Positions 63 to 18,300 of a stretch of DNA of 20,880 bases are shown here, one piece after another (the first letter of the stretch is position 1; each line of letters begins with the position of its first letter). The translations under genes and the position numbers were made by a program. Source of the DNA: a virus; IMG/VR virus record IMGVR_UViG_3300021961_000767, positions 1-20,880 of that record; one strand, given 5' to 3'. The notes beneath the pieces were generated by a model. That model worked only from the letters and a program-made list of their open reading frames with translations, did no database searches and had not been told where the DNA came from.

Positions 63-446
63 ATGACATTGCCAAAACGCAGCGCACCAAAGCACCTGAT
101 CGCGTTCATTAACGAGCCGGACAAGTGGAATCCCGTGGTTTTTGAAGCGGCGATTTGCAAAGAAGTTGAGGATCAGACCGGGGCGCTAACGCCAAGCGAT
201 GCGTTGCTGGTGGGAATGCTGATCACGCAAGTGAATGCGTTTGTTGAAGCTCACGCAAAGATTCAAGAGCTTGGATCGCTGTATGCCTACAACTCTGGCG
301 ATGCAACAAGCCCTTGGACAAAGCTAAGAAACGAAACTTTGGACCGGACCATTAAGCTACTTGGCGAGCTAGGCCTTGTGGCGCGAGGCCGTCCGAAAAA
401 ACAGAATAAGGCGTCAGACGTAGATGAGTTATTCCTCGCTGCTTAA
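63..446 (+). CDS. terS: Terminase small subunit, P27-like
   Basis: Likely the DNA-recognition subunit of the packaging terminase, which binds the packaging site and loads the large subunit. The 127-residue product is mostly helical. Its second half has the P27-like pattern (Terminase_4): a helix with LYAYNSGDATSPWTKLRNE at about 73-91, then a long helix (LDRTIKLLGELGL, 93-105), then a basic tail with RGRPKK. Size and position directly before the large terminase fit. The RGRPKK tail resembles an AT-hook core and could contact DNA, which is inference. A strong G-rich Shine-Dalgarno precedes the ATG. The 3' end overlaps the large terminase gene by 23 bases, so the two are probably translationally coupled. 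Confidence 0.82.
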   Translation: MTLPKRSAPKHLIAFINEPDKWNPVVFEAAICKEVEDQTGALTPSDALLVGMLITQVNAFVEAHAKIQELGSLYAYNSGDATSPWTKLRNETLDRTIKLLGELGLVARGRPKKQNKASDVDELFLAA

Positions 447-2103
447 CCCTGCATTTGAGTATGCAGCCCAAGTTACCCGCGGAGATGTTTTAGCCTGCCA
501 GGATGTCAAGCTGGCCTGCCAGCGATTCCTGGACATGGCAGAGCGCAAGGACGCTCCGTATGAGTTTGTTCCAGCCAAGGCTGAACACATCCTAAAGTTT
601 GTGCGGTTTTGCAATCATGTGAAGGGGCCGGAGGCTGGCAAGCCGATTGAGTTGCAGCCCTTTCAAGCCATGTTCTTGGCGGGAATCTACGGGTTTCGCA
701 GCCGCAAGGATCATTCAGTCCGCTGGACAACAGATGTCATTCTGTTCGTGCCGCGCAAGTCCGGCAAAACAACGCTGGCGTCAATCATTGGCTTGTATGA
801 GCTTCTGTTCGGCGATGCCGGGGCTGAAGTCTTTACATTGGCGACAAACCGAGAGCAGGCGTCAATCTGCTTTGATTCTTCTCGCGCCATTGTGGATACG
901 ATGCATCCTGACCTGGCGGCGAAGTTCTTGGTCTACCGCAATGAGATCAAGAAGCAGGGCGATTCCACCTCGACCTATCGGTCGCTGTCTCGCGAGAATC
1001 GTAAGACGGGCGACGGCAAGAATCCAAGTTGCGCCTTGGTGGACGAGGCGGCTCAGATCACAGAGCGGTCTAGCATTGAGGTTCTGCATTCGGGTATGGG
1101 CGCAAGGAAGAATCCATTGCGCCTATACATGACCACGGCCAGCTTCACCCGTGACACCAAGTTTTTCGAGGACTTGAGTTACTTTCGCAGCATCCTTGCT
1201 GGTGCTGCCGAGGATTCTGGCCGCTGGTTTGGTTTGCTGTACTCGGTTGATACTGGCGACGCATGGCAGGACGAATCAACCTGGGGCAAAGCCAATCCCA
1301 TGCTAGGGGTCTCTGTCACTACGGAGCATATTCGCCATATGGCGCAGGAGGCCGCGGCGAAGCCTGCGTCGCTCAATGAGTTCCTTTGTAAGCAACTGAA
1401 TATCTACGTTAGCGCCAATGCCGCTTGGGTTGACCGGCGCTTCTGGGATGAGTCGGTTGCCGCTTTTCCGAGCGACAAGCCGGAATCTGTGTTCCTGGCA
1501 TTTGACTTGGCGCATTCTCGGGACTTGAATGCGGTTTGCACCTTGTTCCGGTATGACGAGGAGAAGTTCTTTGCCAAGTTTCAATTCTTCCTGCCGGAAG
1601 AGTCGATTGACTTGGTGCCAAACCACTATTTGCCGATTTATGGGCAGGCCAAGGCGACTGGAATACTGAAGCTAACTCCCGGCAACGTCACCGATCATGG
1701 CGAAATTGAGGCGTATATCCGAAAACAATGCGCGGAATATGAGGTCAAAGAGATTGCTTATGACCCATACAATGCCGCGGGATTAGTCGCCAATTTGTAC
1801 TCGGATGGCCTGCCGGTCAAGAAAGTCGGCCAGGGCATGGCAATTCTGAGCAATCCAAGCAAGACAACCGAGCAAATGATCCTAAAACGAGCCATTGAGC
1901 ATGATGGCAACGCGTTTTTAGGATGGCAATTGAGCAACTGCGAGGTTTATACGGACGTTAACGGTAACGTCAAAATCCGCAAGAATGAGGCTGATCCGTC
2001 TGCCAAGGTGGACGGGATCATCTCTTTGATCATGGCAATGCATTGCCATCTGGACAATGTATTTGTCTCCGATAGCTATGGATTTCGTTCGCTGGAGTGG
2101 TAA
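424..2103 (+). CDS. terL: Terminase large subunit (HK97-type ATPase-nuclease)
   Basis: Motor that translocates phage DNA into the procapsid and cuts it into genome lengths. The 559-residue protein has the Terminase_1 layout. The N-terminal ATPase has Walker A PRKSGKTT at 110-117, Walker B ALVDEA at 204-209, and a coupling-like TTAS at 237-240. The C-terminal RNase H-like nuclease has candidate acidic metal ligands D361 (AFDLAHSRD), D447 (AYDPYN) and D530 (KVDGIISL). All are present, so the enzyme looks intact and full length. The ATG lies inside the end of the small terminase gene, with AAGG at 408-411. The gene ends 33 bases before the portal gene. Long ORFs in other frames over this gene look like shadows. 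Confidence 0.95.
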   Translation: MSYSSLLNPAFEYAAQVTRGDVLACQDVKLACQRFLDMAERKDAPYEFVPAKAEHILKFVRFCNHVKGPEAGKPIELQPFQAMFLAGIYGFRSRKDHSVRWTTDVILFVPRKSGKTTLASIIGLYELLFGDAGAEVFTLATNREQASICFDSSRAIVDTMHPDLAAKFLVYRNEIKKQGDSTSTYRSLSRENRKTGDGKNPSCALVDEAAQITERSSIEVLHSGMGARKNPLRLYMTTASFTRDTKFFEDLSYFRSILAGAAEDSGRWFGLLYSVDTGDAWQDESTWGKANPMLGVSVTTEHIRHMAQEAAAKPASLNEFLCKQLNIYVSANAAWVDRRFWDESVAAFPSDKPESVFLAFDLAHSRDLNAVCTLFRYDEEKFFAKFQFFLPEESIDLVPNHYLPIYGQAKATGILKLTPGNVTDHGEIEAYIRKQCAEYEVKEIAYDPYNAAGLVANLYSDGLPVKKVGQGMAILSNPSKTTEQMILKRAIEHDGNAFLGWQLSNCEVYTDVNGNVKIRKNEADPSAKVDGIISLIMAMHCHLDNVFVSDSYGFRSLEW

Positions 2104-2136: not shown

Positions 2137-3534
2137 ATGGCGATTCTCGATATCTTCAAACGCAAGAAGGCCGTTGCCGAAAGCAATACGCTATTCGGTC
2201 AAACTGCCCTCGGAAATAACATTGTCTATCAGGGCAATGACAGTCGCCCGACTGTAAATACGCAGATTCTGTATGTCACCACATCCGGCTCGACCGATGC
2301 CGGAAGGGTGGTTGATATTGGTACGCTGACGCGCAATAGCACCGTGATGGCCTGCGTCAATCTCAAGGCTAGGGCGCTCAGTCAGTTGCCAATCAAGATT
2401 ATGCGGCGCATGGAAGATGGGACGATGGTAGATGCCTTGGCGTCACCGGATGTTCCGACGCGGGAGAAAACTCGCGCCAAAGCGGTTATGTCGCTGCTGG
2501 AGTCTCCCAATCAATTCCAAAGTCAATATGAGTTTTGGTATCAATGGCTCATGTGGCTGGAACTGTCGGGGGAATCCTTTACGCTGTGGTGGCGCAAGGA
2601 TCAGGAGAATCCTTCGCAGGTTCCGATGGAGATGTATATCTTGGACAGCACCTTGATTGCTGTTCAGATTACTCCGACGCGCTATCCGTCTTATCGCCTA
2701 TCCACGCCGTCCTACGGGTTTAGCAAAGATGAGCCTTTGAAGGCGCATCAGGTAATGCACGTTAAAGAGGCTGGATGGCAAGGGTCTGCTGGCTTTAACA
2801 AGGGGTTGCTGGCCGTTGAGCTTGTCGGGCTGGATCAAGACATCGACCTATACGCCAACTATGTGATGCTCAATGGCGCAAAGCCGAGCGGAATGTTTAC
2901 CACCGAATCGGTGATTCCAGACCAAAAGTACAAAGAGATTGCCAGCCGGTTAAAGGAAGCCTGGGCGTCAATGACGGCCAGCCGCCGCCAAGACCCGTCG
3001 AAGCCGGGACAAGGAATGCTGCTCGACCAAGGCATGAAGTATGTGCCGCTGGATATGCTGACCTTGCAAGATGCGGATGCTGCCAATCTAAAAATCCAAA
3101 CCATGAAGCGCATCTGCGGCCTGTTTGGCGTTCCTCCGTCGATGATCGGGATAGCAGACCAAAAGTACAACAATACGCAAACGGTCATGGATGAGTTTTA
3201 TAAGAGCGCAATGTATCCGATGGTTGTGAACATCCAGCAAAAGCTCAAGCAGCACCTTTTAAATGGCTATCCGTCCTTGTATGTAGAGTTTGATACCAAG
3301 GACTTCTTGAAGGGTGCGCCATTGGATCAGATGAATTTTGTTGCGTCTGGCGTAAGCAATGGCATAATTAGTCCTAATGAGGCGCGTGAATACCTCAACA
3401 TGGCGAAGATGGCCGGTGCTGACGCGCTCAAAGACGATGCGAAACCTTCAGATGGGATTGCCGGAACATCGCCTCAAGATACTGGTGGGGGCGGTGGAAA
3501 CCAGCGCAGAAGGATGAACATTGGGACAACCTGA
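2137..3534 (+). CDS. Portal protein (HK97 family)
   Basis: Forms the dodecameric ring at one capsid vertex through which DNA enters and leaves and to which the connector binds. The 465-residue product starts with the typical MAILDIFKRKK. It carries family-like segments: GRVVDIGTLTRNSTVMACVN near the N-terminus, GLDQDIDLYANYVMLNGAKP mid-protein, FGVPPSMIG, and YNNTQTVMDEFYKSAMYP at about 344-361, which belongs to the long helical stem and wing. Length is normal for the Phage_portal family. The C-terminus is Gly-rich (GGGGGN) and probably disordered. GAGG (2128-2131) before the ATG serves as ribosome binding site. The end overlaps the next small ORF by 14 bases. Confidence 0.94.
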   Translation: MAILDIFKRKKAVAESNTLFGQTALGNNIVYQGNDSRPTVNTQILYVTTSGSTDAGRVVDIGTLTRNSTVMACVNLKARALSQLPIKIMRRMEDGTMVDALASPDVPTREKTRAKAVMSLLESPNQFQSQYEFWYQWLMWLELSGESFTLWWRKDQENPSQVPMEMYILDSTLIAVQITPTRYPSYRLSTPSYGFSKDEPLKAHQVMHVKEAGWQGSAGFNKGLLAVELVGLDQDIDLYANYVMLNGAKPSGMFTTESVIPDQKYKEIASRLKEAWASMTASRRQDPSKPGQGMLLDQGMKYVPLDMLTLQDADAANLKIQTMKRICGLFGVPPSMIGIADQKYNNTQTVMDEFYKSAMYPMVVNIQQKLKQHLLNGYPSLYVEFDTKDFLKGAPLDQMNFVASGVSNGIISPNEAREYLNMAKMAGADALKDDAKPSDGIAGTSPQDTGGGGGNQRRRMNIGTT

Positions 3535-3739
3535 TATAAGATATTTACTGGCGCTTCAGCGGCAAATCAAAGCCAAATCTTTGAAATTGCAGCCAAGTGT
3601 GGTAAAACCCCCTACAATACAAGACATTAACCAGTCTATTGTGCAAGGGGTCATCCATGACTCAGCAAATGCTGCTGATGTGCGAAGCGAAACTGTCGCT
3701 CAACGAAAGCGCGGCAGGCCGAAAAAGCGGCCAAATTGA
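3521..3739 (+). CDS. Small basic hypothetical protein, TTG start, AT-hook-like tail
   Basis: A 72-residue ORF squeezed between portal and protease, overlapping both. I do not recognise its family. The only start is TTG at 3521, but it has a good Shine-Dalgarno, AAGGA at 3510-3514, with a 6-base spacer, which supports real translation. The protein is basic and Gln-rich. It ends in QRKRGRPKKRPN, whose RGRPKK hexamer also occurs near the end of the small terminase and resembles the AT-hook core. A DNA-binding or head-assembly role would be inference. The protease ATG (3657) lies within it in another frame. It could instead be a fortuitous ORF in the portal-protease junction. Confidence 0.5.
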   Translation: MGQPDIRYLLALQRQIKAKSLKLQPSVVKPPTIQDINQSIVQGVIHDSANAADVRSETVAQRKRGRPKKRPN

Positions 3740-4436
3740 GGCTCGCATTACAACTTGGGGTCCGCGAGAAGGTTGCGATGGCCGCAAGTTTAATTACAAG
3801 CCCGAGGCATTTATGTCTTGGGCTGAATCTTTTGGGGCGTCCGGCAGGCCGCTTCCCATGTATGTCAACCACGAATCTCAGGGAATTCCGGTCGGAGAGT
3901 GGACCGAATTTGCTTTTGACGATGAAGGGATGACTGCGACAGGTCGAATCTATACAGAAACCAGTTCTGGCAGCGATCTGTATAAGATTATGAAAGAATC
4001 TCCGGCCATGTTTGGTGGGGTTTCTGTCGGTGCATATGCCGACGAATATGAGATGGTTGACTCTGCTGGCGAACCGGATGACTCGGATGACGCCTATTTC
4101 TCCATCGTCAAGGGTGGGCTGCGCGAAGTTAGCGTAGTCATGCATCCCAACAATCCCTCGGCTGCGGTTCATTCGCTGGAGTTCTTCCGCGAGGATGGAT
4201 CAGCCGATCTCAAGATTCTTGAGCAAACCCTGCGCGATGCTGGGTTGTCGAGGAAAGATGCGGTCGCTGCCGCGTCTATTTTCAAGCGCGTTCTTGAGCA
4301 ACGTGATGTTGTTCAACCTGCGCCTGAGAACGCGCCGGTTCAGAGCGATTCTGATGCGGAAGCGACCACCCAATTGCTCGCTGCGCTACAGCAACGCGAG
4401 CTTCTTAAAGCTCTTACCTCAAAGGTTTCCCAATGA
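3657..4436 (+). CDS. Prohead maturation protease (HK97 gp4-like, S78)
   Basis: Serine protease that is packaged in the procapsid, removes the scaffold domain of the capsid protein and then degrades itself. I chose ATG 3657 (259 residues) because AAGGGG (3645-3650) lies 6 bases upstream; an upstream in-frame TTG at 3639 would add 6 residues without a ribosome site. With this start the core runs from about 27 to 180. The candidate catalytic residues are H72 in MYVNHES and S123 in FGGVSVGA, with E157 in LREVSVVMHP as the possible third member. The C-terminal 80 residues are helical, acidic and Gln-rich, as is usual for the part that targets the enzyme to the scaffold. The stop overlaps the capsid gene start (ATGA). 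Confidence 0.88.
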   Translation: MTQQMLLMCEAKLSLNESAAGRKSGQIEARITTWGPREGCDGRKFNYKPEAFMSWAESFGASGRPLPMYVNHESQGIPVGEWTEFAFDDEGMTATGRIYTETSSGSDLYKIMKESPAMFGGVSVGAYADEYEMVDSAGEPDDSDDAYFSIVKGGLREVSVVMHPNNPSAAVHSLEFFREDGSADLKILEQTLRDAGLSRKDAVAAASIFKRVLEQRDVVQPAPENAPVQSDSDAEATTQLLAALQQRELLKALTSKVSQ

Positions 4437-5779
4437 AAGAGATCATTGAAAAGCTGGACGCTATTGAAGCGTCCAATCTGTCGAAGGTCGAAGCAGTCAC
4501 CGCCAAGGTTGACGAGGCCATCGAGTCCATGAAGAACGAAGTGGCTGAGAAAGTTTCGGCCCTGGAAGCCAAGGTTGCTGCGGTTCAAGCTCCCGAGATC
4601 ATTCGTCCGGTCGCCAAATCCGTTCGTCAAGACGTTAACCGTTTGGTGCGTGAGCAACTGCGCGACATCGCCTCTGGCAAGTCCGCTTTTGAGCGCGAAC
4701 TGAAGATGTTTGCTGATGAAGCTCAGTATCACGCCTACCTGCAAGAAGCGTCCGCGCTGACCGCTGGCGGCGACGGCAAAGGCGGCCGCACCGCGTATGA
4801 TCCGGTGTTTGCTGCGCTGCGTCTTGGCAATCCGATGCGCGGCATTTCGCGTACCGTTGCTACTGATGGTTCCAGCTACCAGTTCCGCGTCAAGACCGGC
4901 AATGCTGGCGCTCAATGGGGTTATGGCATCCAGAACAACGGATCGGCCACGACTGAAAACACCAGCATTTGGCAGATCGTGATGAAGGACATCAACGTCC
5001 AGTTCCCGATCCGCACGGCGGCGCTCGATGACATCGACGGCCTTGAGGCCAATGTCGTTGACGATATGCTGGCCGAGTTCGCGCAAAGCGAAGCTCTGTC
5101 GATGGTGCAGAACGATGACCAAAGCGGCACCGGCACGACCGTTGCCACGGGCGGCGCTGATGGCCTGCGTGGCTTGAATCAGTATGGCGGCGCAAACAGC
5201 GTTTACGCTGGCGGCACTACCTCGGCTGCGGCCTTTGGTTCTTCCGGCACCGGCTCGACTTCCGGCCTGCATGACCTGGCAACTTATGATCAGTTGACCA
5301 CCAACGCGAACACCGTTGGCGCAAACAACGTCACCTATAACGACGTTATCAATCTGATCTATGCGCTTCCGCAGCAGTATTGGACGGATGCGGCGCGGTT
5401 TATGATTAATCCGGTTCTGCTCAACGCCATCCGCGCACTCAAGGATGACAATGGCGCTCCGATCTTTAATCGTAACGAAGGTCTGTCGGTTAACGGCATC
5501 GTTGGTCAGTTGCTTGGCTTTGATGTGGTGGTCAACAAGTATGTTGACAACCCGTCGCAAGCCTCGGCAGGTTCGGCTGGCACGACTTCGCTTTATCCGA
5601 TGTACTTTGCCGACTGGTCGCGCTTCCATACCATTGTTGATCGCCTCAACATGGTGATGCGTCGCTACGATCAGACCCTCCCTGGCTACATCACCTTCTT
5701 TGGCGAGAAGCGCCTGGGAACCTCGGTTCGTGACCCGAACAGCGGCGTTCGTTATCGCTCGACTGGCACAGCGACCTGA
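4433..5779 (+). CDS. Major capsid protein 1 (HK97 fold, with scaffold delta domain)
   Basis: Main shell subunit, probably made as a fused scaffold-capsid precursor. Residues 1 to about 104 are charged and helical (coiled-coil pattern EKLDAIEASNLSKVEAVTAKV), matching the HK97 delta domain in size and place. The mature part probably begins near LQEASALTAGG (103-113) and has the Phage_capsid pattern: YDPVFAALRLGNPMR (122-136), a central beta-rich region, and a C-terminal GYITFFGEKRLGTSVRDP (418-435). AAAGG (4421-4425) precedes the ATG, which overlaps the protease stop. From 4433 to 5629 the gene has no TTA, CTA or TCA codon. That bias fits very high expression and explains a 429-codon open frame on the other strand. 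It is followed by a hairpin and then a paralog. Confidence 0.93.
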   Translation: MKEIIEKLDAIEASNLSKVEAVTAKVDEAIESMKNEVAEKVSALEAKVAAVQAPEIIRPVAKSVRQDVNRLVREQLRDIASGKSAFERELKMFADEAQYHAYLQEASALTAGGDGKGGRTAYDPVFAALRLGNPMRGISRTVATDGSSYQFRVKTGNAGAQWGYGIQNNGSATTENTSIWQIVMKDINVQFPIRTAALDDIDGLEANVVDDMLAEFAQSEALSMVQNDDQSGTGTTVATGGADGLRGLNQYGGANSVYAGGTTSAAAFGSSGTGSTSGLHDLATYDQLTTNANTVGANNVTYNDVINLIYALPQQYWTDAARFMINPVLLNAIRALKDDNGAPIFNRNEGLSVNGIVGQLLGFDVVVNKYVDNPSQASAGSAGTTSLYPMYFADWSRFHTIVDRLNMVMRRYDQTLPGYITFFGEKRLGTSVRDPNSGVRYRSTGTAT

Positions 5780-5780
5780 T

Positions 5781-5813
5781 AGGGGTCAAGGGGTGGACGG
5801 GCGTTCACCCCTT
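5781..5813 (+). terminator. Terminator-like hairpin between the two capsid genes
   Basis: AAGGGGTG (5788-5795) pairs perfectly with CACCCCTT (5806-5813). A further G-T and A-T pair inside closes a six-base loop. The T-run is short (the stem ends in TT, then TACTT), so it may be a weak or partial terminator, an RNA-processing site or a 3' stability element, not a full stop. A second 5' arm, AGGGGT at 5781-5786, could compete for the same 3' arm (ACCCCT), giving two alternative folds. Placed right after capsid protein 1, it could set the ratio of transcripts for the two capsid proteins. Confidence 0.6.
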
Positions 5814-5839
5814 TACTTCAACCAGTAAGCGAGAACAAC

Positions 5840-6859
5840 ATGACGGTCACAGAAAAAATTCTTGATGGCATCAAAAGCGCGATCCATGAGGGCGGTAAGC
5901 AAGTTATCAGCCTGACGGAAGCGTCGAGTATCACCGGATCAGGTTCCGGTGTGGGTGGCCGAATTGTCTTTGATGACGTATTTGCGGCCTTGCGATACGC
6001 CAATCCGTTTCGGATGGGTTCACGAATCATGCCGGTTTCCGGTTCTGACGCGATGTTTGTCGCCAAGACAGGCAACGCGACAAATCAGGCGGGAAATCCC
6101 TGGGGCTATCCGGTCCAGGATAACCAAGGCAGTCCCAATACAAATACAACGATCTGGCAATTGCCGGTTCGTGCAATTGCAGCCACTCTTCCAATCCGCA
6201 CCGCGGTCATGTCCGATGTCAATGGACTTGAAGCGGAACTGGTTGAAGATTTGATGATGGAATTCGCGCAGCTAGAAGGCGCTTCAATGGCGATCAACAA
6301 TGATCAGGCCGGAAGCACTACCACCACAACTGGCGCAACCTCCGGGCTTCGCGGTTTGGATAGCTACGCGGATGGCGCGTCTGTTTCTGCGTTTGGAACC
6401 TCGGGCACCGCAATCACCAATGGTATTCATTCGATCTCGACGCAGACTGCAACGACTTCGATTGCTTACACAGACATTACGGCGGCGGCTTCTCGGCTAC
6501 CGGCTCAGTATTGGGCCATGCCGGATGTTGCTTGGCACATCAATCCTTCGACGATTCAAGCTCTGCGCGATCTGACTGACTCGCAAGGGCTTCCATTGTT
6601 CCTGGAGATTGGTGACGAAGATGGCGCTGCGGTTGGTCGCATCTTTGGATGGCCGGTCATCCCGAATCCATATCTGTCTGCCTCTTATCCGGTTTATCTA
6701 GCGCATTGGCCGCGGTTCCTGACCATTGGCGATACGGAAGAGATGTCGATTCAGATGATGGAGCAAAGCGCCCCTGGCTTTGTGACGCTGTTTGCTGAGA
6801 AGCGAGTAGTGTCCACGGTCAAAGACCCGTTCGCTGGCGTTCGTATTAAGGTGGTCTGA
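5840..6859 (+). CDS. Second HK97-fold capsid protein, paralog of capsid protein 1, without scaffold domain
   Basis: A 339-residue protein that aligns with residues of about 102-442 of capsid protein 1. Shared patterns include L-EAS-ITG-GGR (25-41), DDVFAALRYANPFR (45-58), LPIRTAVMSDVNGLEAELVED (within 117-137, near-match to FPIRTAALDDIDGLEANVVDD), GLRGL, LPAQYW, and GFVTLFAEKRVVSTVKDP (313-330). It lacks the ~100-residue charged N-terminus, so it has no delta domain of its own and probably cannot start assembly alone. It uses codons that capsid protein 1 avoids (TCA, CTA). The ribosome site is weak (AAGCGAG before AACAAC-ATG). Both suggest a lower dose. It could be a minor or vertex subunit or an alternative shell protein. 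Which one is unknown. Confidence 0.85.
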   Translation: MTVTEKILDGIKSAIHEGGKQVISLTEASSITGSGSGVGGRIVFDDVFAALRYANPFRMGSRIMPVSGSDAMFVAKTGNATNQAGNPWGYPVQDNQGSPNTNTTIWQLPVRAIAATLPIRTAVMSDVNGLEAELVEDLMMEFAQLEGASMAINNDQAGSTTTTTGATSGLRGLDSYADGASVSAFGTSGTAITNGIHSISTQTATTSIAYTDITAAASRLPAQYWAMPDVAWHINPSTIQALRDLTDSQGLPLFLEIGDEDGAAVGRIFGWPVIPNPYLSASYPVYLAHWPRFLTIGDTEEMSIQMMEQSAPGFVTLFAEKRVVSTVKDPFAGVRIKVV

Positions 6860-7524
6860 TGTCAACCGGCACGTTGTACGATGCAGTTCCCGCTTTAGGC
6901 GGGACTCGGAATCCATTCAATTACGAAAAGATTGAGGAGATTTCTCGCGACAATGTGACTGCTTGGCTGACAATGGAAGAGGTTACGCAGCATCTTAATC
7001 TCTTTGATGATGAGAGTCAGGACGTATACATCGCTAGTCTTGAGCTTGCGACGAGACAGGCTATTGAGGACTATCTAGGCATCTCCATTTTCCCAATTTC
7101 CTATCGGGTTTGGTATGCCGCCTCTTCGCTCTATGGCGAACCTCTTGCGCTTGATTTGCCGGAAGTTTCTCAGAGCAACTACCCAAGTCCGCTTGGTATC
7201 ACGATCATCAAAGTTGCGTATTACAACTCCAGCAATGTCGCCGTTACGTTAAGCAATACCGATTACTTCTATGATGGGTCAGGCAATCGGATTGTTGTTG
7301 ATACGATGCCATCTGACATTAGCTATCAGATTGCTAATCCGGTGTTTGTGGAATATTCGACTGCGGCCAATCTGCTTGCTGCCTATCCGGTAGTCAAGCA
7401 GGCGGCTTTGTTGATGCTCACGCATTTGTACAACCATCGCAGCGACACCGAGGATCGGATCGTCAGAACGATTCCTTATGGCGTTGCTTCGCTGCTGCGT
7501 AAGTACAAGCCGCTGGTGATGTGA
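6859..7524 (+). CDS. Head-tail connector protein (HK97 gp6-like)
   Basis: A 221-residue protein probably forming the ring directly below the portal. The helical first half has the connector pattern: VTAWLTMEEVTQHLNLFDDE, then a helix ending in RQAIEDYLGISIFPISYRVW, followed by a beta-rich middle and a C-terminal helix pair (AALLMLTHLYNHRSDTEDR, then IPYGVASLLRKYKP). That last motif is typical of gp6/Phage_connect-type adaptors. The ATG overlaps the stop of the second capsid gene (TGATG), with AAGGTGG at 6848-6853 as ribosome site. It is somewhat longer than the HK97 protein, with an N-terminal extension of about 30 residues. Confidence 0.78.
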   Translation: MSTGTLYDAVPALGGTRNPFNYEKIEEISRDNVTAWLTMEEVTQHLNLFDDESQDVYIASLELATRQAIEDYLGISIFPISYRVWYAASSLYGEPLALDLPEVSQSNYPSPLGITIIKVAYYNSSNVAVTLSNTDYFYDGSGNRIVVDTMPSDISYQIANPVFVEYSTAANLLAAYPVVKQAALLMLTHLYNHRSDTEDRIVRTIPYGVASLLRKYKPLVM

Positions 7525-8321: not shown

Positions 8322-8816
8322 ATGGCTCTGCCTAATCTTGTTTTGCCGGGGTTCAGCGCCGCGCTGTATTGCCAGCCGGGATCAACTCCTACTCCGCTGA
8401 CCGTTACTCAGCTTTCGCTGGTTGCCAGCGTATCTCCAATTGCCGTGTCCGGTAATTTGCTTCCTGTTGAGGCGATTCCCGCTTTCGGTACGGACGATGC
8501 GGTCGCTTCCTATGGCGTTGCTGGTTCGCGGCAGGGAGACAAGATTCCCGTGCAAAACGCTCCGACTTCGATGTCAATCACAGCGGCGTGGAACCCCTCG
8601 GATGCCAATCTGCTGCTGGTTCGCGCTGATTCTTATTCTGGCGTGATTGACCGGACGTTTGTGATCTCTGCGACAGACGGCACCAATATCGTCTATTACG
8701 CATTTAACGGTCGCGTCGGCAATTTCCAAATTGACTCGGCCCCCGGCGCTGAAGCGAAATGTATGTTCACTATTCATCCGCGTGGCAACCAGTTTGGTTG
8801 GTCGAACAACGCATAA
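8322..8816 (+). CDS. Major tail tube protein 1 (first of a tandem pair)
   Basis: A 164-residue, Ala/Gly/Ser-rich, beta-predicted protein. I identify it as a tail tube subunit from position (after the tail terminator, before the assembly chaperones and tape measure), size, and its tandem homolog. It begins MALPNLVLPGFSAALY and ends with IHPRGNQFGWSNNA. Residues 49-83, from VEAIPAFGTDDAV to QNAPTS, are identical to residues 58-92 of the neighbour. A strong AGAGGAAA ribosome site precedes the ATG. It does not obviously match a named tube family, so the role is inferred. The alternative is that one of the pair is a head or tail decoration protein. Confidence 0.7.
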   Translation: MALPNLVLPGFSAALYCQPGSTPTPLTVTQLSLVASVSPIAVSGNLLPVEAIPAFGTDDAVASYGVAGSRQGDKIPVQNAPTSMSITAAWNPSDANLLLVRADSYSGVIDRTFVISATDGTNIVYYAFNGRVGNFQIDSAPGAEAKCMFTIHPRGNQFGWSNNA

Positions 8817-8828
8817 GGAGTAAATAAA

Positions 8829-9347
8829 ATGGCCGCACCTAATGCAGTTCTTCCTGGTTTTTCTGCCGCCCTGTGGATGCAGGACGATGTTACGCCGACC
8901 CCGCTTTCGACCGCCAATTTAGCGGTTTGGGTGGGTCAAGTCGCCGATATTGCAGGCACCGCCGCCAATGGAACCGGCACCGCTGGCGTTCAAGTTCCCG
9001 TTGAGGCAATTCCAGCCTTTGGAACTGATGATGCTGTCGCATCCTATGGCGTAGCTGGCTCCCGTCAGGGCGACAAGATTCCGGTGCAGAACGCCCCGAC
9101 ATCGCTGTCCATCACAGCGGCATGGAATCCTTCCGATGCAGCGTTGCTGCAAATCCGGGCTGATTCTTATGCAGGTACCGTTGATCGGACCTTTGTTGTT
9201 ACGGCGACCGCCGGGGCTTCCACGGTTGCGTATGCGTTCAATGCTCGCGTTGGCAACTTTCAGATTGACGCAGCGCCTGGGGCTGAAGCGAAGTGTATGT
9301 TTACGGTGCATCCCCGCGGCAACCAGTTTGGATGGAGTAACACATGA
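8829..9347 (+). CDS. Tail tube protein 2 (paralog of tube protein 1)
   Basis: A 172-residue homolog of the preceding gene, collinear over the full length: MAAPNAVLPGFSAALW at the start, AAWNPSDA in the middle, VGNFQIDAAPGAEAKCMFTV near the end, and HPRGNQFGWSNT at the C-terminus. The clearest difference is a 9-residue longer Gly/Thr/Ala-rich loop before the conserved block (GTAANGTGTAG, 43-53). A strong AGGAG (8816-8820) overlaps the stop of tube protein 1 and lies 8 bases before this ATG, so the pair is coupled and both should be well made. At DNA level the two copies differ at many synonymous sites, so this is not a recent duplication or an assembly echo. Confidence 0.7.
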   Translation: MAAPNAVLPGFSAALWMQDDVTPTPLSTANLAVWVGQVADIAGTAANGTGTAGVQVPVEAIPAFGTDDAVASYGVAGSRQGDKIPVQNAPTSLSITAAWNPSDAALLQIRADSYAGTVDRTFVVTATAGASTVAYAFNARVGNFQIDAAPGAEAKCMFTVHPRGNQFGWSNT

Positions 9348-15255: not shown

Positions 15256-18200
15256 ATGCCATCGTCACTCATTTTGACCGCAATATATGGAAGCATGGCG
15301 GCGGCAACTGCTGCGCTTGGAGCAATTGGCGTTGCCGTTACAACCTTTGCAATCAACTTTGCTGTGTCTGCCGTTATGGCAAGGGCATTTACTCCAAAGA
15401 AAGATTCCCCGCAGGACTTTGGAGTACGCCAGCAAATCCCTCCAAGCTCAGACAATCCGGTTCCGGTGGTATATGGCGAGGCGTGGCTTGCAGGAACATT
15501 CGTTGACGCGGTGCTGAGTACCGATCAGAAAACGATGTACTACGTTCTTGCTATTAGCAATATCTCTGCTAATGGGCAAGTAACGTATGACACCACAAAG
15601 TTCTATTACGGGGATCGGCTAGTCACGTTCGACGGCACCGATCAAACAAAGGTTGTCTCGCTGACGGATACCGCTGGAAACGTAGACACCAAGATTGCGG
15701 ATCAGATGTATGTGTATCTGTACACATCAAACGCATCAGGAGTGATCTCTCCTGTCAATACCGCGCAATATCCGCATCAGGTGATGGGCGGTGGAGACAT
15801 TGACGCTGCGCTGCAATGGCCCTCTACAAACCGGCAAATGACCGGACTGGCGTTTGCCATTGTCAAGCTGATCTATTCCGCTGGAGATGGCGTCACAAGG
15901 CTTGAGCCGCTGACCTTTAAGATCAATCATTCCTTGAATGGAACTGGCGTAGCAAAGCCGGGGGATGTTCTCTATGACTATCTGACCAACGAATTCTATG
16001 GTGGTGCTGTTCCTGCTTCACAGGTCAATGCAACTGCTTGTACTGCGCTGAATTCCTATTCAGATCAAGTTATTACTTACACGCCCTATTCTGGCGGGAG
16101 TGCGACTCAGCCTCGATACAGGATCAATGGCGTTCTGAATACGGGCGACACCGTACTGGCGAACTGCGAGCATATTCTGACTGCTTGCGATTCGTGGTTA
16201 TCGTATGACGCGGCAAGCGGTCAATGGACGCCAGTCATCAATAAAGCGGAAACTGCATCGTTGGCATTTGATGATTCCAACATCATTGGAGAGATCAAGG
16301 TCAGCGTTACCGATCTTTCTTCGACCTACAATCAGATCGAAGTTTCGTTCCCGTTCAAAAACAACAAAGACCAACCTGAGTACATCAGAGCAGCGGTTCC
16401 TGCTGGATTGCTGTTCACCAATGAGCCGGTAAATAAACTTAGCACTTCGTTCAATCTGGTGAACGATAGCGTTCAAGCGTCTTACCTTGCCAATCGAATC
16501 CTAGAGCAATCCCGCGAGGATTTGATTGTTACGTTTGCCTCGGCGTACCCCGGCATTCAGTTGAATGCTGGTGATGTGGTCAGCGTTACTAATGCGGAAT
16601 ATGGATGGAGTGCCAAGTTATTCCGAGTGATGAAGGTCGCGGAGGCATCGCTACCTGATGGCAATCTTGGGGCAAGGTTTGATCTGGCTGAGTACAACGC
16701 CCAAGTCTACGATGACTTTGACATCACCCAATACGAACCTGCGCCAAATGGCGATCTGCCTTCGCCCGAATACTTCTCTGCCCTTGGCGCGCCAACGATT
16801 GCAGCGTCAAGGCCCAACGAGAACCCGCCCACATTTGATGTGCAGGTCACACTACCTTTGACTGGTCGCATTACTTGGGCGACGCTCTACTACACCACAA
16901 ACCCTTCTCCAGCCGCGTATGACTGGAAGGTGCTGCGGCAAGCATCTGCTCCACAGGGAACTGCTGCAACAAATGGCGCGATCTATGGCTGGACAAAGAT
17001 TTCATTGCCAGTTGGGGCTTACTATTTCACTTGGATTGTGGGCAATGAGGTTGGTCAGTCAGCAAGGTCAACGACAAGCGCAGTATTTAACTGGACGCCC
17101 CTAGACGTCTCAGGAGCAATCACGGGGCTGGAGGATGAGATTTATATCCTCGGGTTAGACATCGACGATAAGCTCAGTAAGACTGGCGCAAATATCCTGA
17201 CCGGCACAATCGTCCCGGAGGACTCTGGCGGCATTAAGGCTGGATCAATCACTTGGAATTCCTCGACTGGTCAACTGACTGGTGGAAGCGGCGTCGCAAT
17301 CACAGAAGCGGGAATCATTGGCGCACAGAGCGGCACCGCAAAGTTCACTATTGATACGGCAGGGAATGCCACTTTTGCTGGAGACATCAGTACAGACGGG
17401 GATGCGTATTTTGCTGGCAAAACACAAACCGCAACGCAAATCTTTATTCTTGGAAGTTACTATAACGTGGACTATTCCACGTTTTCGTATGCGACATCGA
17501 ACGCGACAAGCGGTTCAGTTGCTAGGGCGGGGACGTATGGTTATGCCGACGCATCAACATCTGCATTGAATATTGGAATTATTGGATACGCTCCATCAAG
17601 CACAAAAGGGGTCGGAGTTTTTGGGCAAGGTGGTGAATATGGCGGGTACTTCATCAATTCATCTTCTGGCGGGATTGCAGTAGTTGCCTCCGCTTATACT
17701 TCCACAAGTATTGCATTGGCAGTATTAGGCAGGATTCAATGGGGCGGCACTTATATCTATAACGAACCAAGTGGATCAGGCGCATTCATGCGTGATGATG
17801 GTTCTTGGTCTTATGCCGTTCGCCAAACTCCATCAAACTCAGGGACCGCGACAGTCAACTCCAGCAGTCAAATCAGTCTGCTTGGAAGCACCAGCACCGG
17901 GATTGCTGGCGCATACGTTGGGACTTCTGCCTCTGGAAGCACCGTCACATGGACAATCCAAACCACCAGTCCTTCTGATCGCAAGCTCAAACAGGACATT
18001 GAGGATTCCGATCTTGGGCTAGATTTCGTCAATCAACTTCAGCCAAAGAAATACAAACTCAAGGCTGACCCAAAGCAGCAGGTGGGTTATGGTTTCATTG
18101 CTGACGAGGTTGCTGCTCTTGGCGTCCGAGATACTTCTTTGGTGTATCACGAACCGGAGTGGCAGGTTGGGGAGGAAACCGGATTTGACACGATACATTA

Positions 18201-18300
18201 CCCCTCATACGTTGCCATTCTGACCAAGGCAATTCAAGAATTGAGTGCCAAGGTTGATAGTCTGCAAACAGAGATTGCAGCCCTCAAAAACACCCCGTAA
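15256..18300 (+). CDS. Central tail tip protein: gpI-like segment, gpJ-like core, fibre and S74 chaperone
   Basis: 1014 residues, probably the host-recognising tip. Residues 5-45 are hydrophobic and Ala/Gly-rich, followed by SSDNPVPVVYGEAWLAGT; together they resemble the C-terminal half of lambda gpI. A gpJ-like core (tip attachment pattern) spans about 100-500, with an FN3-like domain at about 515-615. Gly/Ser/Thr-rich fibre sequence follows (about 620-895), with GNATFAGDISTDGDAYFAG. The C-terminal 108 residues form an S74 intramolecular chaperone: SDRKLKQDI (S907 is the likely self-cleavage serine), VGYGFIADEV, YPSYVAILTKAIQEL and a closing coiled coil. S74 domains trimerise the fibre and then cut themselves off. 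GAGGA (15243-15247) lies 8 bases before the ATG. Confidence 0.87.
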   Translation: MPSSLILTAIYGSMAAATAALGAIGVAVTTFAINFAVSAVMARAFTPKKDSPQDFGVRQQIPPSSDNPVPVVYGEAWLAGTFVDAVLSTDQKTMYYVLAISNISANGQVTYDTTKFYYGDRLVTFDGTDQTKVVSLTDTAGNVDTKIADQMYVYLYTSNASGVISPVNTAQYPHQVMGGGDIDAALQWPSTNRQMTGLAFAIVKLIYSAGDGVTRLEPLTFKINHSLNGTGVAKPGDVLYDYLTNEFYGGAVPASQVNATACTALNSYSDQVITYTPYSGGSATQPRYRINGVLNTGDTVLANCEHILTACDSWLSYDAASGQWTPVINKAETASLAFDDSNIIGEIKVSVTDLSSTYNQIEVSFPFKNNKDQPEYIRAAVPAGLLFTNEPVNKLSTSFNLVNDSVQASYLANRILEQSREDLIVTFASAYPGIQLNAGDVVSVTNAEYGWSAKLFRVMKVAEASLPDGNLGARFDLAEYNAQVYDDFDITQYEPAPNGDLPSPEYFSALGAPTIAASRPNENPPTFDVQVTLPLTGRITWATLYYTTNPSPAAYDWKVLRQASAPQGTAATNGAIYGWTKISLPVGAYYFTWIVGNEVGQSARSTTSAVFNWTPLDVSGAITGLEDEIYILGLDIDDKLSKTGANILTGTIVPEDSGGIKAGSITWNSSTGQLTGGSGVAITEAGIIGAQSGTAKFTIDTAGNATFAGDISTDGDAYFAGKTQTATQIFILGSYYNVDYSTFSYATSNATSGSVARAGTYGYADASTSALNIGIIGYAPSSTKGVGVFGQGGEYGGYFINSSSGGIAVVASAYTSTSIALAVLGRIQWGGTYIYNEPSGSGAFMRDDGSWSYAVRQTPSNSGTATVNSSSQISLLGSTSTGIAGAYVGTSASGSTVTWTIQTTSPSDRKLKQDIEDSDLGLDFVNQLQPKKYKLKADPKQQVGYGFIADEVAALGVRDTSLVYHEPEWQVGEETGFDTIHYPSYVAILTKAIQELSAKVDSLQTEIAALKNTP

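Follow-up and report, generated by a model that had tools for sequence, protein, structure and literature searches.

The capsid genes and their operon

The window, by which we mean the whole analysed stretch of 20,880 nucleotides (positions 1 to 20,880 of IMG/VR virus record IMGVR_UViG_3300021961_000767), carries genes for terminase, portal, prohead protease, MCP1, MCP2 and connector in this order (Table 1). Apart from its additional capsid gene, this head operon is a standard one.

Table 1. Features of the capsid gene pair and the surrounding head operon
Feature	Position	Strand	Product or property	Matches
Terminase large subunit	424..2103	+		PF03354, PF20441
Portal protein	2137..3534	+		PF04860 (3.2e-61)
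Prohead (head maturation) serine protease, Peptidase_S78	3639..4436	+		PF04586 (9.5e-8); phrog_3244 (2.8e-8)
MCP1, major capsid protein (HK97 fold) carrying a delta (scaffold) domain at its N-terminus	4433..5779	+	448 aa, ATG start	PF05065, phrog_10
Delta domain of MCP1, residues 1 to ~102	4433..4738	+	no counterpart in MCP2	
Hairpin directly behind the MCP1 stop codon	5782..5819	+	terminator-like or RNA-stabilising; -24 kcal/mol, z -4.0	
MCP2, delta-less capsid paralog with predicted HK97 fold	5840..6859	+	339 aa, ATG start	PF05065, AlphaFold2 model
Head-tail connector/adaptor, next gene after MCP2	6859..7524	+		PF05135 (1.6e-4); phrog_40 (3e-11)

A first-pass annotation of this DNA had described two tandem HK97-type capsid genes, the second being a full-length paralog of the mature part of the first, without a delta domain of about 100 residues. 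The coordinates given there were exact and the description holds in each of its parts. Both proteins match the Pfam family Phage_capsid (PF05065; E 8.6e-30 and 104.5 bits for MCP1, E 2.4e-21 and 76.8 bits for MCP2, with a curated cut-off of 24.2), and both fall into the PHROG class 'major head protein'. PF05065 was found at E <= 0.001 by 57 of 64 MCP2 representatives. In a BLASTP comparison, 138 of 346 positions are identical (40%, E 2e-75), residues 103-442 of MCP1 being aligned with residues 25-337 of MCP2, and profile-profile comparison gives a probability of 100 and E 3.9e-87 over 308 columns that start at residue 102 of MCP1. The shared region runs from the N-arm to near both C-termini. 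Such scores rule out a chance resemblance.

The delta domain is missing in all 64 MCP2 representatives: the residues ahead of a shared EASA motif number 19-41 in MCP2 vs 98-112 in MCP1 (64 sequences each). The scaffold domain of HK97 makes up the N-terminal portion of its capsid protein and has been modelled up to residue 103 (PMC10275583), so the point where the match between MCP2 and MCP1 begins fits the boundary between scaffold and mature protein. Residues 2-50 and 64-82 of MCP1 are predicted by AlphaFold2, with low confidence, to form long helices, and the Peptidase_S78 gene lies upstream of MCP1, as is expected for a capsid protein with a delta domain.

An AlphaFold2 model of MCP2 (pLDDT 72, pTM 0.74; 63 sequences, the GenBank phage row being left out of the alignments used for structure prediction) predicts an HK97 fold in which N-arm, E-loop, spine helix, A-domain and P-domain are all present. 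Its best structural matches are the capsid proteins of RcGTA, cf-PICI EcCI2, D3 and HK97 (Z 15.7-21). The corresponding model of MCP1 was poor (pLDDT 53.5), too low for a structural comparison with MCP2. When solved structures were searched by sequence, MCP1 matched RcGTA and MCP2 gave no significant match.

What can be said from the fold and the position of the gene? Some encapsulin structural matches align from residue 1 of MCP2, and HK97-fold proteins that lack a delta domain, encapsulins for example, assemble by themselves. Both points would suit an MCP2 that forms a separate small shell of its own, or one that has an assembly role outside the virion. We regard this as very doubtful: the place of the gene inside the head operon is fixed, no cargo gene adjoins it, and its dN/dS (see below) equals that of MCP1. 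Another suggestion can be made from the gene's location between the capsid and head-tail connector genes, a place that is taken by a small accessory gene in the single-capsid phages examined. MCP2 might be a minor head protein that sits elsewhere, around the portal vertex for instance, or an HK97-fold surface or decoration element. This too seems improbable to us. MCP2 keeps the N-arm, E-loop, spine helix and P-domain strands, which is all that is needed for lattice contacts, and we know of no decoration protein with a full HK97 fold.

Beyond the missing domain, and in addition to the earlier account, MCP2 differs from MCP1 in loop lengths. Three loops of the A-domain segment are shortened (9-12 vs 19, 14-16 vs 22-31 and 5-10 vs 17-19), and their lengths never overlap between the 64 MCP1s and the 64 MCP2s. 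The E-loop of MCP2 has an insertion, with 5-9 residues in the place of 3 in MCP1. The shortened loops come after the spine helix and ahead of the last long strands, which places them in the A-domain segment of the HK97 fold; this assignment follows the order of secondary-structure elements in the model and not coordinates. In the HK97 fold this segment is found at the centre of the capsomer.

Conservation and age of the pair

IMG/VR was scanned five times with queries that included distant members and alignments. There were hundreds of matches, and no more than the 80 best from each scan were taken. Two profiles were used to sort the resulting 315 loci, from which the window's own copies and three single-capsid phages were left out; some loci overlap on the same contig and eight come from the same MAG contigs, hence the number of independent contigs is lower than 315. 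An intact MCP1-MCP2 pair is present in 286 of the 315. In two others (L128 and L149) MCP1 is followed by a frameshifted MCP2, possibly through assembly errors, and one locus (L314) contains the end of MCP1 plus MCP2. A single gene is seen in 20 loci, all of which end within 400 nt of the partner's place. In six loci none of the open frames counted matched either profile, and these loci were not used. None of the 309 classified loci has one capsid gene and room for, but not, the other, and every locus that reaches far enough has both genes in the same order. We conclude that paired capsid genes are a fixed trait of a large, mostly uncultured group of freshwater phages.

The first-pass annotation had proposed that MCP2 may co-assemble as a minor subunit, for example at the vertices in the way that T4 gp24 is related to gp23, or may take a different lattice position; this proposal gains partial support here. 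It had also suggested a homology search to see whether the pair is conserved together, and had named free loss or decay of MCP2 in relatives as what would speak against its proposal. The pair is indeed conserved together; no loss was seen in loci long enough to show it, two copies are frameshifted, and dN/dS of MCP2 is about 0.10. If the two frameshifts are real, they are what one would expect of a redundant or decaying duplicate. Such an explanation is contradicted by the locus classification, and neither the low dN/dS nor the fact that MCP2 diverged in parallel with MCP1 agrees with it. We find it hardly credible.

Among 50,697 phage records, a clear MCP2 was met only in Methylophilaceae phage P19250A (KX815270), where it lies directly behind MCP1. 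The two proteins, gene products 5 and 6 of that phage, stand in the same order as in the window and are 59% (MCP1) and 54% (MCP2) identical to their counterparts there. In P19250A, the one cultured relative that was met, MCP2 (positions 6066-7124) is annotated as 'hypothetical protein' and MCP1 as 'gene transfer agent capsid protein'; the record makes no mention of a second capsid protein. The open-access papers searched did not include the original description of P19250A, so its capsid genes may have been commented on elsewhere. In a search of host genomes, MCP2 was present on contigs of five MAGs, most of them assigned to Betaproteobacteria, with a complete MCP1 on two. No further contigs with MCP2 were found in 273 other genomes of one class.

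The duplication is old. The unrooted tree splits into an MCP1 and an MCP2 clade, and the branch that connects them measures about 1.0 substitutions per site. (Rooting with the capsid proteins of AS1, K256 and pAN introduced branches of 4.5 to 10, which made the rooted tree uninformative.) Since the smallest distance between an MCP1 and an MCP2 (0.53) is greater than the largest distances within the clades (0.37 and 0.48), the duplication predates all sampled relatives, including P19250A, and a recent local duplication is ruled out. The single-capsid phages examined are far more distant from MCP1 and MCP2 than these two are from each other. Purifying selection on the two genes is similar and strong, with a median dN/dS of 0.115 for MCP1 and 0.102 for MCP2 (752 sequence pairs). 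Overall, MCP2 is the more variable protein (median distance 0.37 vs 0.22).

The hairpin behind MCP1

A strong G+C-rich hairpin, in most cases terminator-like, stands behind MCP1 in all 106 distinct MCP1-MCP2 junctions examined. In 99 of them a criterion of hairpin plus T-rich stretch picks it out, and in the other seven it can be seen by eye. Behind MCP2 the same criterion picks out 4 of 97 sites, and ahead of MCP1 0 of 97; for shuffled sequence the figure is 5%. A strict terminator scan of the window does not call this hairpin, whose T-run is weak. Most gaps between the two genes are 40-90 nt long, so that a promoter downstream of the hairpin would have little space; a search of the MCP1-MCP2 part of the window gave no sigma-70-like site. 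Since the hairpin is present in all junctions examined, MCP2 is probably expressed less than MCP1. Ribosome-binding sites were considered as a cause of unequal expression and rejected, as no difference in strength was found between those of MCP1 and MCP2. Similar hairpins follow the capsid genes of AS1 and K256, both single-capsid phages, so that the structure is not specific to the pair and may predate it; today it would hold MCP2 below the level of MCP1.

In some relatives an extra gene sits between the hairpin and MCP2, and the hairpin then stays beside MCP1. A gene of ~180 aa is found there in L012 (positions 5425-6000) and in L056/L151; by eye its product looks like a GIY-YIG endonuclease, and it has no Pfam match. 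A different gene, of about 110-130 aa, starts close behind the hairpin in L016, L037-L039, L043-L048, L060 and L061, and matches only phrog_2859 (unknown function; E 4.6e-27).

Possible roles of MCP2 in the shell

We suggest that the capsid gene was duplicated long ago and that MCP1 and MCP2 have since divided the work of shell building between them. MCP1, which would have kept the delta scaffold, may nucleate the procapsid together with the portal and form the hexamers, to judge by its sequence features. MCP2 would have lost the delta domain and shortened its A-domain-segment loops. If the observed hairpin does act as we suppose, MCP2 would be made in smaller amounts. It would join the growing MCP1 lattice, in all likelihood by forming homopentamers at the 11 vertices without a portal. 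From the ~38-kb genome of P19250A one may expect a T=7 shell, in which there would be 55 MCP2 and 360 MCP1 subunits. Cleavage by the prohead protease would then take away the delta domains of MCP1 and perhaps also a short N-terminal helix of MCP2. That MCP2 is such a dedicated minor subunit, with the penton as its most likely place, is the reading we favour, with some confidence.

How could a subunit without its own scaffold enter a procapsid? At the ordinary penton vertices of HK97, unlike at its portal vertex, the surrounding delta domains do not engage the penton subunits to any substantial extent (PMC10275583); this makes a scaffold-less penton subunit mechanically plausible. Pentamers of phiKp24 have disordered central loops, for which a shortage of space may be the reason (PMC9700779), and a shortening of these loops in a pentamer specialist would be in line with this.

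A known division of this kind exists in T4. According to one 2025 paper, no virus other than T4 is known to assign hexamers and pentamers to two different HK97-fold proteins. As with T4 gp23 and gp24, there are two HK97-fold paralogs per genome here, and the second has a short N-terminal extension only. The propeptide of gp24 has 10 residues vs 65 in gp23, and the bypass mutations that allow gp23 to replace gp24 include sites in the gp23 A-domain, at the intra-capsomer subunit interface (PMC9958956). Taken with the loop loss in the A-domain segment of MCP2, these facts strengthen the analogy with gp24, and together with the HK97 vertices and the phiKp24 loops they make the vertex role the most likely one. 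Some results go against it. MCP1 and MCP2 have diverged throughout their mature domains, with a consensus identity of 43-57% in each, and no single interface stands out. The hairpin is also present in the single-capsid phages AS1 and K256, and the ribosome-binding sites of the two genes are of similar strength.

Unlike T4, the phages considered here are small (~38 kb) siphoviruses whose scaffold is fused to the capsid protein, and MCP1 and MCP2 are about 40% identical as compared with about 20% for gp23 and gp24. MCP1 and MCP2 belong to PF05065, the only family that was matched; kinship with T4-type capsid proteins was not found. The duplication is apparently independent of the one in T4. We would put the case for a second, independent origin, in a widespread group of freshwater siphoviruses, of a dedicated HK97-fold penton protein whose subunit enters the procapsid without a scaffold domain of its own, at slightly better than even.

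The main rival to the vertex role is that MCP2 shares mixed (hetero) capsomers with MCP1 or takes a non-vertex position in the lattice. Irregular co-assembly of two HK97-fold paralogs is documented for Enc1 and Enc2, the Family 2B encapsulins of Streptomyces lydicus, where composition is variable and tiling irregular (PMC12407261). Mixed contacts between MCP1 and MCP2 are conceivable, since their similarity in the A-domain is about the same as elsewhere. However, the consistent loss of three loops in the A-domain segment would disturb the centres of mixed capsomers, and the hairpin between the genes suggests unequal amounts. The encapsulins also differ from the present system in that they form a cellular nanocompartment with mixed pentamers and have no portal, protease or terminase, whereas the MCP1-MCP2 pair is flanked by genes for terminase, portal, prohead protease, connector and tape measure. 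Mixed capsomers are, in our opinion, unlikely, though to be taken seriously.

HK97, D3 and RcGTA share the predicted fold of MCP2; RcGTA also resembles MCP1 in sequence, and HK97 has the delta-domain architecture of MCP1. They differ in using one capsid protein for all capsomers, as do HK97-fold capsids other than that of T4 (PMC12407261).

If MCP2 is the penton protein, the division of labour between hexamers and pentamers can evolve again, and some 300 loci and one culturable phage, P19250A, represent such a case. It would also be a natural experiment on the need for the delta domain at vertices, and it would account for the 'hypothetical protein' that this group of phages of freshwater bacteria invariably carries.

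The window has a further pair of tandem paralogs (8322-8816 and 8829-9347), of 164 and 172 aa and 72% identical, which are weakly similar to a major tail protein (phrog_158, E 0.024). Sufficient sequence was available for 110 relatives, of which 37 carry both copies and 73 a single one; unlike MCP2, this duplication comes and goes. Further downstream, a long tail protein (15256-18300) matches Phage-tail_3 and has an intramolecular chaperone of the Peptidase_S74 type (4.8e-10) at its C-terminus.
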